IMG/VR virus record: IMGVR_UViG_3300048091_000260
Location: 1-35,696 of that record
Source: a virus
Length of the DNA stretch: 35,696 bases
Strand: one strand, 5' to 3'
Part shown: in pieces, positions 235 to 35,674 of the stretch
How positions within the stretch are numbered: the first letter of the stretch is position 1
How the letters are laid out: every line of letters begins with the position of its first letter
Position numbers and translations under genes: made by a program
Notes under the pieces: generated by a model
Told to the model about the DNA's origin: nothing
What the model saw: only the letters and a program-made list of their open reading frames with translations
Databases searched by the model: none

Positions 235-1365
235 TCAGGCGATATTAGATGCATTCCAGGGCAGTTTCATGTCGATCGCCGACACGTCCGGAATTGCTTC
301 CTTGATGTAGATTTCGCTCGTCTTGCTGCTGGTGTGCACCAGACGCTTTTGTATTTCGGCCATGTGCTTGCCCGCCCTCGCCGCGTCCGTGGCACCCAGC
401 GAGCGCAGGTCCTTGAACGTCACGTCGTCGGTGATGCCGGCGCGCTCCCTCGCCCGATCCCACATCGATATCAATCCGGTCTTCGCGTACGGAGTCCCCT
501 TTTGGCTCGGGAACACGTAGGGCGAGATGATCTCGTAGCCCTTCTTGATGGCGCGCGCTCGGTCGATCACATCCTGGATGGCCGGAGTGATCGCGATGTC
601 GACCACCTTGCCGCTGCTCTTCTTCGTCTTGCTGGGCTGGATCCGGATGTAGCCGCCCTCGATCTGGCTTTCCTTCATGGTCCGGATGTCGACCGCACGC
701 GCCCACAGCAGGTAGGCCATGTCGACCAAGCAGGCGAACATCGGACCGCTCGCGTTCGGCATGACCCGACCGTTGTCGGCGCGCGGCTTGCTGTACATGC
801 CAGCGGCGCGGATGCGCTGCACCTGGTCATGCGTTATCAGCACCGTCCGACGCTCAGTCTCGAAGTCGCCCAAGTCTAGCTGATCGATCGGGTTGTCCTG
901 CCGCAGGCCCAGGCCCGACACGGCGTACCTGAACAGCTTGCTGGCCAGCGCACCGTACTTGCGCGCGGTGTTCGGCTTGTCCGCGAACTTCTCGCGGAGA
1001 AAATCAGCGAATTCTTTGGTCGTGACCTCCCCCACCTGGAAGGCTTCGAACTCGTCGGCGATCACATCCAGGTACTGGCTGTACTGGTCCTGCGTCTGCT
1101 TCGTGTACTTGCCCAGCTTGTGCGCCTTGAACTCGGCGCACAGGTGCGGCACAGTGCCCTGGACGTGTGTCTTGCTGCCCAGGAGCTCGGCCAGCCTGTT
1201 CAGCATGACCACCTCGCCCTCTTCCTTCCCGCACAAGCGGATCCAGGTCTTCAACTCCTTGGTCTTAGGGTCGCGGATCTTCTCCGGCGCCACGTAGTAG
1301 TAGGCGTTGAATTTGATGTACACCCGGCGCGGGAGCCCGCGGTTCGTTTTGCGCTGCCTGTTCAT
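235..1365 (-). CDS. int: Phage integrase (tyrosine recombinase)
   Basis: This 376-residue site-specific recombinase catalyses integration at, and excision from, the tRNA-Pro site. An N-terminal region (about 1-70) is followed by a SAM-like core-binding domain (about 70-165) and a C-terminal catalytic domain. Visible catalytic residues are R223 (in WARAVD), K247/248, R321 (in KDLR), H344 (in LVHTS) and the nucleophile Y353 (in EIYIK). The usual first His of the HxxR box is Lys (K318), which I believe occurs in some phage integrases. The gene ends 107 bp from attL and is the last gene of the leftward operon. Its ATG overlaps the stop of the DUF4224 gene by 4 bp (ATGA), so the two are translationally coupled. 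Function is near certain; the strand-exchange specificity is inferred from the flanking att repeats. Confidence 0.95.
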   Translation of the reverse strand: MNRQRKTNRGLPRRVYIKFNAYYYVAPEKIRDPKTKELKTWIRLCGKEEGEVVMLNRLAELLGSKTHVQGTVPHLCAEFKAHKLGKYTKQTQDQYSQYLDVIADEFEAFQVGEVTTKEFADFLREKFADKPNTARKYGALASKLFRYAVSGLGLRQDNPIDQLDLGDFETERRTVLITHDQVQRIRAAGMYSKPRADNGRVMPNASGPMFACLVDMAYLLWARAVDIRTMKESQIEGGYIRIQPSKTKKSSGKVVDIAITPAIQDVIDRARAIKKGYEIISPYVFPSQKGTPYAKTGLISMWDRARERAGITDDVTFKDLRSLGATDAARAGKHMAEIQKRLVHTSSKTSEIYIKEAIPDVSAIDMKLPWNASNIA

Positions 1366-1580
1366 TGCCTTGCTGATTTCCTTTTCGGTCCCGGGGCGGC
1401 CGCTGGCGGCGGCATACCGCTGGGGTTCTTCACGTGGGCCCGGAGCACGCAGACCGTGTTGTCGATCCTGCGCAGCTGCGCTGGAATGCCCAGATCCCGC
1501 AGCGCGGCCAGCTGCTTCTTCGGGAGCTTGTAATGGGTGATCGCGTAGATCTCCTGGCTGGACAGTATCAAGTCGTCCAT
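1362..1580 (-). CDS. DUF4224 family protein, probable excision accessory factor
   Basis: This 72-residue protein has the DUF4224 pattern: a short acidic start (MDDLILSSQEI), then an 'eItgyk..kkQ..aLr.lGi' block (about 9-32), then a region ending in VCVLRAHV. The C-terminal tail is Pro/Ala/Lys rich. DUF4224 genes lie next to phage integrase genes in many proteobacterial prophages, and an excisionase-like or integrase-regulating role is often assumed. I know of no direct proof. It has a good ribosome binding site (AGGAG, about 8 bases before the ATG), unlike most genes in this operon, so it may be translated independently. It is coupled to int by a 4-bp overlap. Confidence 0.75.
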   Translation of the reverse strand: MDDLILSSQEIYAITHYKLPKKQLAALRDLGIPAQLRRIDNTVCVLRAHVKNPSGMPPPAAAPGPKRKSARQ

Positions 1581-3578: not shown

Positions 3579-3626
3579 CTTTGCTCTGCGGCGCGCGCCG
3601 GCGCCGAAGATGTCGATCTGGTTCAT
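3579..3626 (-). pseudogene. Truncated start of an operon gene
   Basis: An ATG overlapping the methyltransferase stop by ATGA opens a frame reading MNQIDIFGAGARRRAK. The frame stays open further only as the antisense of the 2910-3578 gene, which is unlikely to be its own coding sequence. I read this as the first 16 codons of the next operon gene, whose remainder was replaced when the plus-strand cassette arrived. It may still be translated as a junk fusion. Confidence 0.4.
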
Positions 3627-4489
3627 GCGAACATCCTTTGTTGTGTGGCCTGCTGCTCGAGCGCGGCGGCGCAGGCCGGGTTGGTCCAGACGACTTCCTT
3701 ACGCACCCGTCCCCCGTCCGCGATGTGCTTACGCTCGTGGCGGATCCAGTCCGGATACAGCTCGCGGTCGTACAGCGCACTGGGGTAGCCTGACAGGACC
3801 ACCATTCCTTTGGCGGCATGCAGCACGCCGGCAAGCTGACGGTGATCGTCGTCGGTCATCTCGTGGCGGTAGCCATGGCTCTTGTTCGATCGGAACGCTG
3901 TCCGCGTGCTGTGGCAGTAAGGCGGGTCCGCATAGATCAGGGTCGACGGCGAATCCATCCGCTCGATGACCTCGATCGCATTCCTGTTTTCGATTACCAC
4001 GCCCTTGAGACGATGGGTGAAGCTCGGGATGGCGTTTGACCAGGTGGAGTACTCGACGCTGGGCAATACGCGACCGTCGGAAAGCTTGGACCGGAACCCG
4101 GTGCGGCAGCCCCTGGTGGCCGAGTCGCTGCCGTGGCCCATGAACGACTTGATGATCAGCTTATGCGCGCCGTCCATCTCGTCGACTACAGGCTCATAGG
4201 CCCAGTCGAATTCCTCCCTGGCGAACGGCGTCAATTCGACGCGGCGCTGCAGCTCGAGCGCGCGCTCCGGGTCGCGCAGGATGCGGAACAGGTTCACAAC
4301 GTTACCGTCCAGGTCGTTGTAGCACTCGGCGCCGACCCGCTGCTTCTGCAGCAAGACGGACGCCGCGCCACCGAAGGGCTCGACATACACGACGTGGTCG
4401 GGGAAGAACGACAGGATCCACGGCGCCAGGCGGAACTTCCCGCCGTGGTACCGCAGCACCGGGCGAGTCGGCGCGGTCTCGACCATCAC
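3623..4489 (-). CDS. D12-class N6-adenine DNA methyltransferase (Dam-like)
   Basis: This 288-residue enzyme would transfer a methyl group from S-adenosylmethionine to adenine in DNA. Its motifs are in alpha (D12/Dam) order: YHGGK at 14-18 (motif X), VEPFGGAASVLL at 36-47 (motif I, AdoMet binding), NDLDGNVVNLFR around 58-69, and the catalytic DPPY at 187-190 (motif IV). The length fits the family. There is no restriction endonuclease gene nearby, so it is a solitary methyltransferase, plausibly protecting phage DNA from host restriction or changing regulation. The recognition sequence cannot be told from the sequence. It overlaps the upstream winged-helix gene by ATGA. Confidence 0.93.
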   Translation of the reverse strand: MMVETAPTRPVLRYHGGKFRLAPWILSFFPDHVVYVEPFGGAASVLLQKQRVGAECYNDLDGNVVNLFRILRDPERALELQRRVELTPFAREEFDWAYEPVVDEMDGAHKLIIKSFMGHGSDSATRGCRTGFRSKLSDGRVLPSVEYSTWSNAIPSFTHRLKGVVIENRNAIEVIERMDSPSTLIYADPPYCHSTRTAFRSNKSHGYRHEMTDDDHRQLAGVLHAAKGMVVLSGYPSALYDRELYPDWIRHERKHIADGGRVRKEVVWTNPACAAALEQQATQQRMFA

Positions 4490-10101: not shown

Positions 10102-11085
10102 ATGAAGCCGGCCGACATGATCGCGCTGCCGGTGCCGCTTACCCCCGCCGACTGCAACCTGCAGGACTTCGTCTTCATGCCGCTGGACGTCGCGCGCCTG
10201 CGCGATAGTGATCTGGCGGCATACCAAGCGCCCGAAGCGTGCTGGGCCGCGGTGCTCTTATGGGCTGCTGCCTGGCACCAGGTCCCCGCAGCATCCCTTC
10301 CTGACGACGACCGCTTCCTGGCTAAGGCGGCCGGCTATGGCCGCGTGGTCAAGGAATGGATGAACGTGCGCGAAGGCGCGTTGCACGGCTGGATCAAGTG
10401 CGCTGACGGGCGCCTGTATCACCCGGTCGTCGCGCAGAAAGCCATTGAATCGTGGCGCGCCAAGCTGCACCACGCATGGAAGAAAGAGTGCGATCGAATC
10501 CGGAAAGCCAATAAGCAACGCGAGACAGAGGGAAAGTCACCGCTCCCGTTTCCACCGGAACCAAAAGCCGATACGTCGCCTATTCCGCATGAAGCTGATG
10601 GAATTCCGGCGGAAATACCAAGTGAATCCACCGGAAGCGATGGCAGCGCAGATGGAAGTCCGAAGGAAAACGCTCTTAAGGGACAGGGAGAGGGACAGGG
10701 AGAGTTAACTTCAAAAGCTACTACCCCTGGCGGGGTAGTCGTCGCCAGCCAGGCTGGCAACCTGTCGACTAGCCGCCCGCAGCCAGCAGCAAGGCCAGAG
10801 TGCCCGCACCAGCAGATCATCGCTCTGTACCACGAGCTCCTGCCCGAATGCCCGCAGGTTCGCGACTGGACGCCAGCCCGCCAGCAGCAGCTGCGCGCAC
10901 GATGGAACGAGGACCCGCGCCGGCAGAACATCGACTACTGGCGGCAGTTCTTCGAATACGTGAAGAAATGCGGATTCCTCGTCGGGCGCGGTGTGGGCAA
11001 TCGCGACCGACCATTCTTCGCCGACCTGGAATGGCTGACCAAATCGCAAAATTTCACGAAGATCCGAGAAGGAAAATATGAGTAA
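10102..11085 (+). CDS. Replication protein (DUF1376/YdaU-like N-term, DnaT-like C-term)
   Basis: This is a 327-residue protein at the place of lambda O/P22 18. Residues about 1-125 resemble DUF1376 (PLTPADCNLQDFVFMPLDVARL, WAAVLLWAAAWHQVPAASLPD, then RLYHPVV). The middle (about 130-245) is a low-complexity Ser/Pro/Gly linker. The C-terminus (about 248-325) looks like the DnaT/primosome-type DNA-binding domain (LYHELLPECPQVRDWTPARQ, RQNIDYWRQFFEYVKKCGFL, then FFADLEWLTKSQNFTKI). It would bind the origin and load the DnaB-type helicase encoded next, with which it overlaps by 8 bp. The linker DNA contains repeats and a strong hairpin that may be the origin. Confidence 0.82.
   Translation: MKPADMIALPVPLTPADCNLQDFVFMPLDVARLRDSDLAAYQAPEACWAAVLLWAAAWHQVPAASLPDDDRFLAKAAGYGRVVKEWMNVREGALHGWIKCADGRLYHPVVAQKAIESWRAKLHHAWKKECDRIRKANKQRETEGKSPLPFPPEPKADTSPIPHEADGIPAEIPSESTGSDGSADGSPKENALKGQGEGQGELTSKATTPGGVVVASQAGNLSTSRPQPAARPECPHQQIIALYHELLPECPQVRDWTPARQQQLRARWNEDPRRQNIDYWRQFFEYVKKCGFLVGRGVGNRDRPFFADLEWLTKSQNFTKIREGKYE
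10552..10739. other. Candidate replication origin inside the replication gene
   Basis: The linker-coding DNA holds two CCACCGGAA copies (about 10552 and 10628), a tandem 12-bp repeat of GGGACAGGGAGA (about 10680-10703), an AT-rich step, then a perfect 8-bp hairpin ACTACCCC-TGGC-GGGGTAGT (10720-10739). Lambdoid origins lie in the same place within the initiator gene. Assignment is by analogy only. Confidence 0.35.
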
Positions 11086-12433
11086 CGAAGTCAAAGCGCC
11101 GCCCCACAGTCTCGCCGCCGAGCAGGCCGTAATCGGCGCCCTACTACGTGACAACGACGCGGTCGACCGCATCGGCGACCTGCGCGCCGAGCACTTCTTC
11201 CTGGGTGACCACGCTACGATCTTCGGCGAGTTGATGCGCAACCTGGCCGCCGGCCGCAGCTGCGACGTGGTCTCACTGGCGGTTGCCCTGGGCAGCAAGG
11301 TGGCCGACAGCATGCAGTACCTGAACTCGATGGCGCAGAGCACGCCGTCGGCGTCCAACATCGGGCGTTACGCGGCGATCGTGCGCGACAAGGCCGTCAA
11401 GCGCGGGCTGATCAGGTTCGGCCGCGATGTCGCGGAGGCCGCCGCCAATTCGCCGGAGGAGTCGGCCGCCATGGTCGACCACGCATCATCCGAGCTGGAG
11501 AAGCTGGCCCTGGCGCGCACCAGGATCGAACCGGTGCGCGCGGCCGACGAGCTGACCGCGCACGTCGAGGAGATCGAGCGCCGCATCGAGGGCAAAAGCA
11601 AGGCGATCTCGACCGGCTTTCCCGCCGTCGACGAGAAGCTCAGCGGCGGCCTGCGTGGCGGCGACCTGATCGTGCTGGCGGCGCGGCCGAAGATGGGCAA
11701 GACCGCGCTGGCCGTGAACATCGGATGCAACGTGGCGCTCGATCACCCCGTGCTCATCCAGTCGATGGAAATGCCAAAATCGCAGCTGCACGACCGCAAC
11801 CTGGCCAGCCTGGGCCGGATCCCACTGCCGCACCTGCTGCAGCCGTCGAAGATGACGGACGAGGACTGGGCCGGACTCACGCATGCGTCGATCAAGATCA
11901 GCGAGATGAAGCTCTACCTGGACGACCAGGGCGGGCAGCGCCTGATCGACGTGCGCATGAAGGCGAAGGGCGTCAAGCGCAAGCACGGCCTGAAGTTGCT
12001 GATCGTCGACTACCTGCAGCTGATGGAAGGCGACGGCGACAACCGCAACGCGCAGATCGAAGGCATCACGCGCGGCCTCAAGGCGCTGGCCAAGGAGCTG
12101 GACATCGCGATCATCCTGCTGTCCCAGCTTAACCGCAAGCTCGAGGAGCGCCCGAACAAACGGCCGATCCCGTCCGACCTGCGCGACTCAGGCTCGATCG
12201 AGCAGGATGCCGACGCCGTGATCTTCCTGTACCGCGACGAGGTCTACAACCCGGACAGCCCGGACATCGGCATGTGCGAGGTCGACGTGGCCCTGTGCCG
12301 CCAGGGCGCGCCGGGCCGCGTGGCCCTGACCTACATCGGCGAGCAGGTCAGGTTCGAGTCGCTCAACCGCAGCTGGATGCCGGCGAAACCTGCCGAGCGC
12401 TCGCGCCCTCGCGGACTGGCGGCGCACTTATGA
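11078..12433 (+). CDS. Replicative DNA helicase, DnaB-type
   Basis: This 451-residue hexameric helicase would unwind the phage replication fork. The N-terminal DnaB domain (about 9-105: PPHSLAAEQAVIGALLRDN) is followed by a linker and the RecA-like motor. Motor motifs are Walker A ARPKMGKT at 202-209, Walker B LLIVDYLQLM at 307-316, the LSQLNR motif near 353, and the C-terminal IEQDADAVIFLYRDE. The length matches host DnaB (about 450-470). Its start overlaps the end of the loader gene (ATGAGTAA) and its stop overlaps the recombinase start (ATGA), so the three are one translation unit. Having its own DnaB makes the phage less dependent on host helicase. Confidence 0.95.
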   Translation: MSNEVKAPPHSLAAEQAVIGALLRDNDAVDRIGDLRAEHFFLGDHATIFGELMRNLAAGRSCDVVSLAVALGSKVADSMQYLNSMAQSTPSASNIGRYAAIVRDKAVKRGLIRFGRDVAEAAANSPEESAAMVDHASSELEKLALARTRIEPVRAADELTAHVEEIERRIEGKSKAISTGFPAVDEKLSGGLRGGDLIVLAARPKMGKTALAVNIGCNVALDHPVLIQSMEMPKSQLHDRNLASLGRIPLPHLLQPSKMTDEDWAGLTHASIKISEMKLYLDDQGGQRLIDVRMKAKGVKRKHGLKLLIVDYLQLMEGDGDNRNAQIEGITRGLKALAKELDIAIILLSQLNRKLEERPNKRPIPSDLRDSGSIEQDADAVIFLYRDEVYNPDSPDIGMCEVDVALCRQGAPGRVALTYIGEQVRFESLNRSWMPAKPAERSRPRGLAAHL

Positions 12434-13482
12434 CGGCGCGCCTGTTCCGAGTCGGCGCCGGCCGCACCTGGCACTACCGCTTCCAGGTGGCCGGTGTGCG
12501 GATCCAGCGCAGCACGCGCGAGAAGAGCAAGGGCCGGGCCAAGAAGGTCGCGGAAAAAGCTTACGATGATGCGGTCGTGCGCGCCAACGGCGGCCAGCCG
12601 GTACCGACCGTGCGCGAGACAGCAGCAGCCTGGCTGGAAGTCCATCGCCCGATCGTGAGCGCTGCCCACGCGCGCAGCGTCGAGAGCTTCGTCAAGCTGC
12701 ACATGTTCGACCTGGGCGACCGGCCCATCGGCTCCATCGGCACCGCCGATGTCGAGCGCGCGCGCAACCAGTACCTCGAGACGCACAAGCCGTCGAGCGC
12801 AAACCACTGGCTGCGTGTCCTGAAGCTCCTGGCCATGTGGGCGGTCAAGCGCGGCGCCATCCCTGCCCTGCCGTGGAAGGTGCGCATGCTGAAGGTGCAG
12901 AAGCGTCCGCGCGCGACCCTGCCGCTGGGAACCGCGCGCACCTGGTTCTCGGCGCTCGACCAGGCGTCGGCGCGTGCGCCCGCTGTGGGCACCGCGGTGC
13001 GCATGATGTTCGGCCTGGGCCTGCGTGAATCGGAGGCAGCCAGCGCGCGCTGGGAGTGGATCGATTGGCAGCGCGAGACCTATACCCCGGGCGTGACGAA
13101 GGGCCGCGAGGCCGAGCCGGTGCCGATCCCGGCATGGCTGCTCGAGCACCTGGAGCCAATGCGCAAGGACCAGGGCCTGATCGCGTCGCGCACCAACGGG
13201 ACGCAGCTGCCGGCTGGCTTCGCACGAAATGCAATGCGGGCCGCCAACGACGCCTGCATGGTCAAGGGCATCACCCCGCACCGCCTCCGCGGCACGTTCG
13301 CGACCCTGCTGTCCGAGTCGGGCGTGCCGATCCAAACCATCCAGAAGGTGCTGCGCCACAAGCACCCGATGACCACGATGGCCTACCTGGAGAAGAACCT
13401 CGACACAGCCGCCCAGGCACAAAACCGCATCGGCGAACGAATTGGATTCGAGCGGCGCAAAAGTGGCGAGACAAGCGGGTGA
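12430..13482 (+). CDS. Second tyrosine recombinase, within the replication module
   Basis: This 350-residue protein has an N-terminal arm-like region (about 1-58, RTWHYRFQVAGVRIQRSTRE) and a core-binding domain (about 60-145). Its catalytic domain has all expected residues: R199 (GLRESEAA), K224 (GVTKGRE), H284 and R287 (HRLRGTF), H310 (LRHKHPM) and Y319 (MAYLE). It is coupled to the helicase gene by ATGA. The phage already has an att-adjacent integrase at 235-1365, so this one probably does not integrate the phage. In lambdoid phages this place carries Nin genes such as the RusA resolvase. It may resolve genome multimers or replication intermediates, Xer-like. It is unrelated in detail to the first integrase and was probably acquired separately. 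Confidence 0.85.
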   Translation: MTARLFRVGAGRTWHYRFQVAGVRIQRSTREKSKGRAKKVAEKAYDDAVVRANGGQPVPTVRETAAAWLEVHRPIVSAAHARSVESFVKLHMFDLGDRPIGSIGTADVERARNQYLETHKPSSANHWLRVLKLLAMWAVKRGAIPALPWKVRMLKVQKRPRATLPLGTARTWFSALDQASARAPAVGTAVRMMFGLGLRESEAASARWEWIDWQRETYTPGVTKGREAEPVPIPAWLLEHLEPMRKDQGLIASRTNGTQLPAGFARNAMRAANDACMVKGITPHRLRGTFATLLSESGVPIQTIQKVLRHKHPMTTMAYLEKNLDTAAQAQNRIGERIGFERRKSGETSG

Positions 13483-13754
13483 TTTCCTAGAGGAAAAATA
13501 ATTATCTTCAGTCATCCGGTTCTTGGCCACGCTTTTCGGGAATTTCCGGGTGTTGAAGAGGCAGTTGGGCGGTGTTTCGGCGGTTTCAGGAGCGGCGGTT
13601 CGGCGGGAATAAAGCGCGCGATAAAGCCGAATAAAGCCGAGGAAAAAGGCCGTGCCAAAACGCGCGATGCAGAGGGAAGCCGGCCCGGCGTGCTGGAAGC
13701 AAGGAAAACGGTTTTGCCGAGTGATCGGCACAACGATGAGACGAGGAAGGAAGC
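13483..13754. other. Repeat-rich non-coding spacer before the Q-like gene
   Basis: I see no convincing gene here. It begins with an inverted repeat TTTCCT-AG-AGGAAA (13483-13496). It then holds several GGCGGTTTC/GGCGGTTC-like copies (13569-13603) and a tandem 10-bp repeat ATAAAGCCGA (13621-13640), with a further half copy at 13609. These may be regulatory-protein sites or a secondary recombinase site next to the second tyrosine recombinase. Confidence 0.45.
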
Positions 13755-13787
13755 ATGATCAACGCACTTTGTGGGGCACCGACGTGA
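13755..13787 (+). CDS. Ten-codon leader ORF coupled to the Q-like gene
   Basis: ATG 13755 has the best Shine-Dalgarno of the region (AGGAAGGAAG just upstream). It encodes only MINALCGAPT before a TGA that overlaps the GTG of the next gene as GTGA. The next gene has no good ribosome binding site of its own, so this mini-ORF probably delivers ribosomes to it. Confidence 0.5.
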   Translation: MINALCGAPT

Positions 13788-14221
13788 AACAGAAAACCAA
13801 CATGGAAGACCTGAACATCGACAAGCGGCTGGAGAACTGGGGGCATTGCCAGCGCGGCAAGGGCGGCGGCTCGATGATGACGCGGGAGACGCGGCGCATG
13901 TCGCCCTACGGCGGCCAGGGTTACCGATGCATGACCAATGTCGTCTGCACCCTCATGAGGGAAGCGGCAAGCGGGCCGGTCGGCGGTGCGGCCACGCAGT
14001 CCAAGCTCGACTTCGCGGACGCCGCGACGATCAACGCCGCATGGCTGATCCTGCCCACCAAGCAGAAGCTGCTGCTGCGCGACTTCTACGTCCTGGGCCG
14101 GCCGGTGAACGTGATTTGCCGCGAGATGAGCATCAAGCACTGGCCGGCATCGCACTGGCAGCGCGAGCTGCGCGCAGCACAGGCCGCGATCGAGGCGAAT
14201 ATCAAGCTCGGCACAACGTGA
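13784..14221 (+). CDS. Q-like late antitermination protein
   Basis: This is a 145-residue protein. Its pattern (NIDKRLENWGHCQRGKGGGS, RRMSPYGGQGYRCMTNVVC, then AATINAAWLILPTKQKLLLR, VICREMSIKHWPASHW) resembles the short antiterminator-Q type found in proteobacterial prophages. Position supports it: it is the last gene of the early rightward operon, followed by a strong promoter and two tandem terminators just before the terminase. Expected action is to modify RNA polymerase at the late promoter so it reads through the terminators into the virion genes. The start chosen is GTG 13784, by coupling to the leader ORF; ATG 13802 is the alternative. Confidence 0.7.
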   Translation: MKQKTNMEDLNIDKRLENWGHCQRGKGGGSMMTRETRRMSPYGGQGYRCMTNVVCTLMREAASGPVGGAATQSKLDFADAATINAAWLILPTKQKLLLRDFYVLGRPVNVICREMSIKHWPASHWQRELRAAQAAIEANIKLGTT

Positions 14222-14307
14222 GCGACTATTGCTCTGACTCAACTGACGCTGTGTTAGCATGGAGTTAACGTGACGACCGTCGCGCATGACCAACATGGGA
14301 GAACAGA

Positions 14308-14640
14308 ATGATCAGGATCAACGATAGAGAAGTTGTATTTCAAACCTCGGTTATATTGCGCCCTGAAGAAACGGCTGTGATCACTACTCCGGAAACCTGC
14401 GGGTTTAACCTGAAGCTTAAGGCTGGTGCAAAAGGGGTAATGCCCCAAAGCGTTGATGAAATGGAAAAATCCGTGGTAGGCAACGAATTTACATTTGACA
14501 TTCCGTTTCTAGACAACAACTTCACAATTAACTATCACAACGACCTGGAGTACGCAGGAAGAACCGTTACATCGCTGTTTGCCGGCCATGGAGTAGGCGA
14601 CTGGATGGTTATTCACGTTCAGTTTATTGCCGCAAGCTGA
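14308..14640 (+). CDS. Accessory protein between Q and the terminase, unknown
   Basis: This is a 110-residue soluble protein with a good Shine-Dalgarno (GGGAGA). The sequence is predicted mostly beta (REVVFQTSVILRPEETAVIT, NEFTFDIPFLDNNFTINYHN, then GDWMVIHVQFI), with no signal peptide and no cysteine pairs. The gene is clearly AT-richer than its neighbours, which points to recent transfer. An AT-richer segment with a possible extended -10 (TGTTAGCAT, about 14252-14260) lies upstream, so it may have its own promoter as morons do. No family is recognised. Confidence 0.6.
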   Translation: MIRINDREVVFQTSVILRPEETAVITTPETCGFNLKLKAGAKGVMPQSVDEMEKSVVGNEFTFDIPFLDNNFTINYHNDLEYAGRTVTSLFAGHGVGDWMVIHVQFIAAS

Positions 14641-35518: not shown

Positions 35519-35594
35519 CTGTGAGCTATATTAGATGTTCATCTAATATACAGCCCTGTTGATACGTACAGCATCTTCTGTAAGTCTTTGATTC
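35519..35594. other. Right attP arm with inverted and direct repeats
   Basis: This contains a perfect 11-bp inverted repeat TATATTAGATG-TT-CATCTAATATA (35527-35550) and the 15-mer TCATCTAATATACAG (35539-35553), identical to 177-191 in the left arm. These are the best candidates for arm-type binding sites of the integrase or its excision factor. No gene is seen in the arm. Confidence 0.6.

Positions 35595-35674
<80 letters not shown>

Follow-up and report, generated by a model that had tools for sequence, protein, structure and literature searches.

What does a prophage that already has an integrase at its end do with a second tyrosine recombinase, encoded directly after its replicative helicase? 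The locus touches on the long-standing question of phage mosaicism, for which the usual answer is relaxed homologous or illegitimate recombination. Our analysis favors, with a probability of roughly 60%, a phage system for module or cassette exchange, in which this recombinase (TYR) would be active at its own site at positions 13453–13519. That composite site at the 3′ end of the TYR gene is what is new here.

A Second Recombinase in the Replication Operon

The window, meaning the entire 35,696-nt stretch analyzed (IMG/VR record IMGVR_UViG_3300048091_000260, linear), contains a prophage. It carries attL/attR-like repeats at 59–135 and 35576–35652, the right one overlapping a tRNA-Pro at 35598–35674. 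A first tyrosine integrase, identified by a profile match (235–1365, minus strand), lies beside the left repeat and outside the exchange site, together with an excisionase-like ORF (1362–1580, minus strand). The att-adjacent integrase noted in an earlier sequence-only reading of this DNA is therefore real, and TYR is the second recombinase because this first one is also present. In the early leftward region, an ORF at 3623–4489 (minus strand) resembles a DNA adenine methylase by eye.

TYR (12430–13482, plus strand) comprises 350 amino acids and matches the Pfam families Phage_integrase (5.5e-18) and Phage_int_M (5.3e-7) as well as the PHROG integrase profile (4.4e-46). It possesses the Phage_integrase fold and the catalytic R-K-H-R-H-Y set of tyrosine recombinases; the six residues (R199, K224, H284, R287, H310 and Y319) are unchanged throughout an alignment of 20 relatives, and the C-terminal end of the gene is conserved among them as well. 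Its ATG lies on the TGA of the upstream gene for a DnaB-like replicative helicase (11078–12433, plus strand; profile match), the two sharing ATGA. These data confirm the initial description of a complete second recombinase starting on the helicase stop codon.

A single AlphaFold2 model predicted a β-β-β-α N-terminal unit resembling an arm-binding domain (residues 1–50, pLDDT 80–89), followed by core-binding and catalytic domains; the domain arrangement is unsure because the mean pLDDT is 72.8 and the pTM 0.44. The top Foldseek matches of the model were Tn1549 Int, XerA and lambda Int. Since the arm-binding unit of phage and ICE integrases consists of three strands and a helix (PMC8138268), the predicted N-terminal unit has the make-up of an arm-binding-domain integrase of the lambda/Tn916 type. 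Assignments of TYR to the integron integrases (TIGR02249; 48.9 bits against a cut-off of 265) and to XerC or XerD (53.4 of 335 and 39.0 of 330 bits) were rejected.

Relatives of TYR and Their Genomic Neighborhood

We collected 32 TYR loci from IMG/VR and bacterial genomes, most of them 59–89% identical to TYR, and a further search yielded 156 stretches encoding such a protein; we kept the top 80 of these. Among cultured phages, only distant integrases of ~31% identity or less were found. Carriers of TYR and its site are phages of soil and water bacteria; the named hosts are Janthinobacterium, Duganella and Massilia, and 10 of 198 genomes close to the Janthinobacterium host genome contain TYR.

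When the same gene order was sought in other phages, as had been proposed, close relatives were found at the same genomic place in many Oxalobacteraceae phages, with both the position and the operon overlap kept. TYR is flanked by a replication gene on one side and by variable genes toward the terminase on the other, the slot before it being occupied by DnaB or, in some relatives, by other predicted genes. Nine of 16 TYR records possess a further over-threshold tyrosine recombinase gene elsewhere, and several of the remaining records are fragments. Judged by this conservation, TYR is a conserved phage gene and not debris.

One bacterial genome (G024) bears three different TYR-family genes on three contigs (L185, L193 and L196), so possible exchange partners occur in one cell. 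At locus L177, an antisense cassette separates a TYR of only 45% identity from a composite site ~0.4 kb further downstream, indicating that the system reaches past the close TYR family.

A Composite Site at the 3′ End of TYR

The composite (13453–13519, plus strand) resembles an attachment site and is conserved in relatives, even where the spacer after TYR is otherwise unrelated. Its arm-like direct repeat, CGGCGCA-AAAG-TGGCGAG (13453–13470), lies on the TYR codons for RRKSGE and also occurs in the non-coding cassette ends of relatives; the consensus, within the last conserved TYR codons, is TGGCGNG-AAAG-TGGCGNG with an 11-bp period. The core-like inverted repeat, ATTAT-CTTCA-GTCATCCGG (13501–13519; consensus ATKAT-N5-RTCAT(CGG)), has the breakpoints of relatives at its right edge. 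Within the loci, the core matrix gave 94 matches above 18 bits, versus none for the reversed matrix.

An arm-to-core distance of 54/55 bp was measured at 89 sites and one of 46/47 bp at 14, including 47 bp in the clade of the window. This distance is constant whatever the position of the stop codon and is the same in non-coding cassette ends. The offset tracks TYR phylogeny, the 46/47-bp spacing needing two changes on the TYR tree, from which only the spacing and displaced counts were taken, the variant core class being unlabelled there. One group of relatives has a variant composite with a GCCACAAAAGTGGC arm and a core ending in GATCAGCAG, at the same 54-bp offset. Both direct repeats changed in step in this group, as expected for repeats read by one domain, and locus L104 carries variant and canonical copies in tandem.

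A scan of all IMG/VR (2.9 million viral contigs) with the composite pattern returned 90 stretches, nearly all directly 3′ of TYR or forming a second copy at a cassette end. Two records, L132 and L172, contain the composite without TYR; neither has a Phage_integrase match, and both are possibly incomplete. In L172, two composites lie 518 bp apart with a small antisense gene between them, and in L132 a HEPN-like ORF is located downstream of the composite. No second composite was found elsewhere within the window, and no conserved second arm was seen to the right of the core. In three host genomes, the search revealed no attB with the same core, which occurred only in prophages save for one unrelated partial match. 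We also rejected TYR as the prophage integrase at attP/attB, as the composite is internal and the end repeats lie beside the other integrase.

The sequence-only reading had envisaged a switch acting on a nearby site such as the repeat-rich spacer at 13483–13754. The idea of a nearby site stood, in that a conserved composite extends from the last part of the gene into the spacer and marks recombination breakpoints. The repeats of the spacer (13540–13750) had to be given up as the target: they are short, imperfect and common to the nearest clade only, and the conserved site starts inside TYR. Direct repeats of the AATAAAGCCG type (GAATAAAGC...GATAAAGCCGAATAAAGCCG) at 13607–13648 are kept in the nearest relatives, L008–L011, L014, L030 and L032, ~90–150 bp past the core, and are possibly a promoter, antitermination or origin-like element.

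Breakpoints and Reassortment of Flanks

The segment past the core in the window (13520–14640, plus strand) contains two ORFs, at 13784–14221 (phrog_19609) and 14308–14640, and occupies a slot that is variable among relatives. In 59 phage pairs at least 92% identical on the left, identity is 1.00 across all 18 core positions, falls to ~0.6 from +21 and reaches ~0.3 by +90. As a control, 49 pairs with near-identical TYR ends were compared on both sides: homology was present over the 600 bp upstream of TYR in 42 of them, but over the 300 bp past the core in only 4, a large asymmetry, albeit among pairs that are not mutually independent. The upstream gene boundary is not accompanied by a comparable loss of homology. 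Seven loci (L045–L051) illustrate the pattern, each combining almost the same TYR with a different segment past the core.

Reassortment was seen around the second composite of the largest two-site clade, whose TYR ends are 91–100% alike. Cassette ends there are of two unrelated types, and several types of flank follow the second core. All four combinations of two end types and two flank types are present (L059; L064, L082 and L121; L078; L060 and L080), which is formal evidence that the flanks of the second composite have recombined. The locus thereby displays both the breakpoints at the site and the reassortment of flanks across it that cassette exchange would leave. Against such exchange, the right flank is common to L077 and L150 although their core spacers differ. 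Cassette interiors have recombined too, so homologous recombination is also at work.

Cassettes and Their Cargo

Most phages carry a single composite. About 14 distinct loci have two in direct orientation, 965–2058 bp apart, enclosing genes in the lytic orientation, e.g., dGTP_diPhyd_N, DUF7220 and DUF4406. Two sites per locus is the maximum observed, including one tandem pair, with no longer arrays seen. With few exceptions, the left and right core spacers of a two-site genome are unlike, a mismatch that would be expected to impede simple excision, and each is constant across the largest two-site clade despite different contents. Such differing spacers are as expected of a heterospecific pair for cassette exchange.

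Cassettes of another kind are located after TYR but before the arm repeats and usually comprise one or two antisense genes. The products include Abi_alpha (PF14337, 3.6e-25) in L004, SocA_Panacea in L079 and a histidine kinase in L096; the L095 cassette encodes an ApeA-like HEPN protein just under the cut-off. Single-gene antisense cassettes just left of the arm were noted in L004, L068, L079, L088, L091, L095, L096 and L177, the L095 contig ending before the composite site. No site copy was seen at the left junctions of these antisense cassettes. In L194, an extra short sense gene is followed by the composite and ~890 bp matching the uninterrupted loci L157, L190 and L196 of the same TYR clade.

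Matches to PADLOC candidate families were obtained for the L004 gene and for the antisense gene past the core in L047. The antisense genes past the core in L047, L050 and L090 have no Pfam match and a defence-like setting, one of them corresponding to PADLOC PDC-S31; we regard the three as candidates for new defence genes.

A Model of Exchange and Its Alternatives

In the proposed model, TYR would be produced alongside the helicase in lytic growth, and the composite would serve it as a one-armed attachment site of its own. The enzyme would recombine composites carried by separate phage genomes, or a pair within a single genome, and an accessory segment or the whole downstream arm would be swapped, gained or lost between the replication and late genes. 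We infer the binding and cutting of the composite by TYR, the position of the cut, the timing and any host factor, e.g., IHF. The support comes from the intact conserved enzyme, the TYR-specific site of fixed geometry, the breakpoints, the reassortment and the cassettes between direct copies. Together they suggest gene-swapping machinery dedicated to accessory-gene blocks that differ exactly at the composite. A poor fit is provided by the left-of-arm cassettes of L004, L068, L079, L088, L091, L096 and L194, which would not arise from one crossover at the core and so need more than one. A more specific version of the model is natural recombinase-mediated cassette exchange, where heterospecific site pairs flank a cassette and TYR swaps left with left and right with right between co-resident phages; we put this forward tentatively, as a possibility.

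The main rival to cassette exchange is multimer resolution, plausible though on balance unlikely, which the sequence-only reading had suggested beside a role at replication intermediates or a recombination switch. TYR would then be a Cre/Xer-like resolvase acting on a single composite to resolve dimers or concatemers, or to circularize the genome during replication, with module differences arising as a by-product. The one composite per genome of most phages and the place of TYR in the replication operon, where overlap with the helicase gene makes co-expression with dnaB possible, agree with this. A resolvase should, however, delete the cassettes lying between direct site pairs at the ~14 loci unless their spacers are incompatible; L132 and L172 keep composites without TYR, and the Xer models score far under their cut-offs. 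On sequence grounds, the exchanged-flank pattern fits cassette or module exchange better. It is less probable still that the composite is a regulatory element or homology linker with TYR a mere neighbor, its flanks being shuffled by homologous (Red-like) or illegitimate recombination and selection. The recombination of cassette interiors speaks for such a linker, as does the frequent shuffling of phage module boundaries by relaxed homologous recombination (PMC3945230). Against it stand the almost exclusive tie of the composite to TYR in 2.9 million contigs, a geometry typical of recombinase sites (directly repeated arm, inverted core, constant offset) and the lack of a similar loss of homology at the upstream gene boundary.

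We consider it very improbable that TYR is a second integrase with the composite as its attP for chromosomal insertion at another locus, even if the composite adjoins the gene, as attP often does, and tyrosine recombinases with an arm-binding domain are mostly integrases (PMC8138268). The prophage is bounded elsewhere, by the tRNA-Pro repeats, the three host genomes hold the core in prophages apart from the one partial match, and the right side of the core has no conserved arm. The idea that TYR was left behind by a satellite or island that entered after dnaB and then decayed deserves hardly any credence. Satellites that carry an integrase and lie among the late genes of a prophage have been described (PMC10111431), which counts in its favor, yet no satellite genes lie beside TYR, and the operon overlap, position and active site are conserved across the numerous relatives inspected. 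The view of TYR as a second phage recombinase thus withstands the objection originally named against it, that of an integrase left by a decayed satellite, given that many phages conserve the gene together with its position and operon.

The site lies where a stable replication block meets a hypervariable accessory region. If correct, cassette exchange there by TYR would provide a dedicated mechanism for part of the module mosaicism of temperate phages and would account for the loading of defence-like genes at a single place in prophages. Should the heterospecific-pair version hold, module shuffling at this locus would be enzymatic and site-specific. Given the geometry of the site and the pattern of four combinations, the exchange reading can be tested directly, and TYR with its short site could serve as a useful tool.

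Comparison with Known Systems

Our search of the open-licence literature retrieved neither a phage second integrase with module exchange nor a match for Oxalobacteraceae phages. It also returned no natural phage system with the cassette-exchange layout, whose absence is not thereby proven. The locus resembles an integron in that a recombinase gene lies beside its own site, variable cassettes end in recombinase-specific site copies, and orphan sites exist without the recombinase. Unlike in integrons, the composite consists of arm repeats and a core rather than a folded attC, the recombinase gene has the site at its 3′ end, and at most two sites per locus were seen. Folding of six composites gave z-scores of −2.5 to +0.5 with no common structure or hairpin, and attC was rejected. 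Phage-borne integrons described earlier use IntI and attC (PMC9892861).

Accessory and defence-like genes that vary at a single conserved place in a phage genome are reminiscent of the defence hotspots of P2/P4 prophages and satellites, although the place here is marked by a recombinase and a specific composite; the text of the P2/P4 hotspot paper does not contain the terms recombinase or att site (PMC9122126). Integrases of the lambda and Tn916/Tn1549 types share the protein architecture and catalytic residues of TYR, as well as a core inverted repeat with arm-like direct repeats ~50 bp off. In contrast to these systems, the composite has one arm only, and TYR has no role at the prophage ends, where the other integrase serves. 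A single internal site and possible multimer resolution recall Cre/lox and Xer/dif, from which the composite differs by its additional arm repeats. Finally, the heterospecific site pairs around a cassette resemble those of engineered recombinase-mediated cassette exchange.
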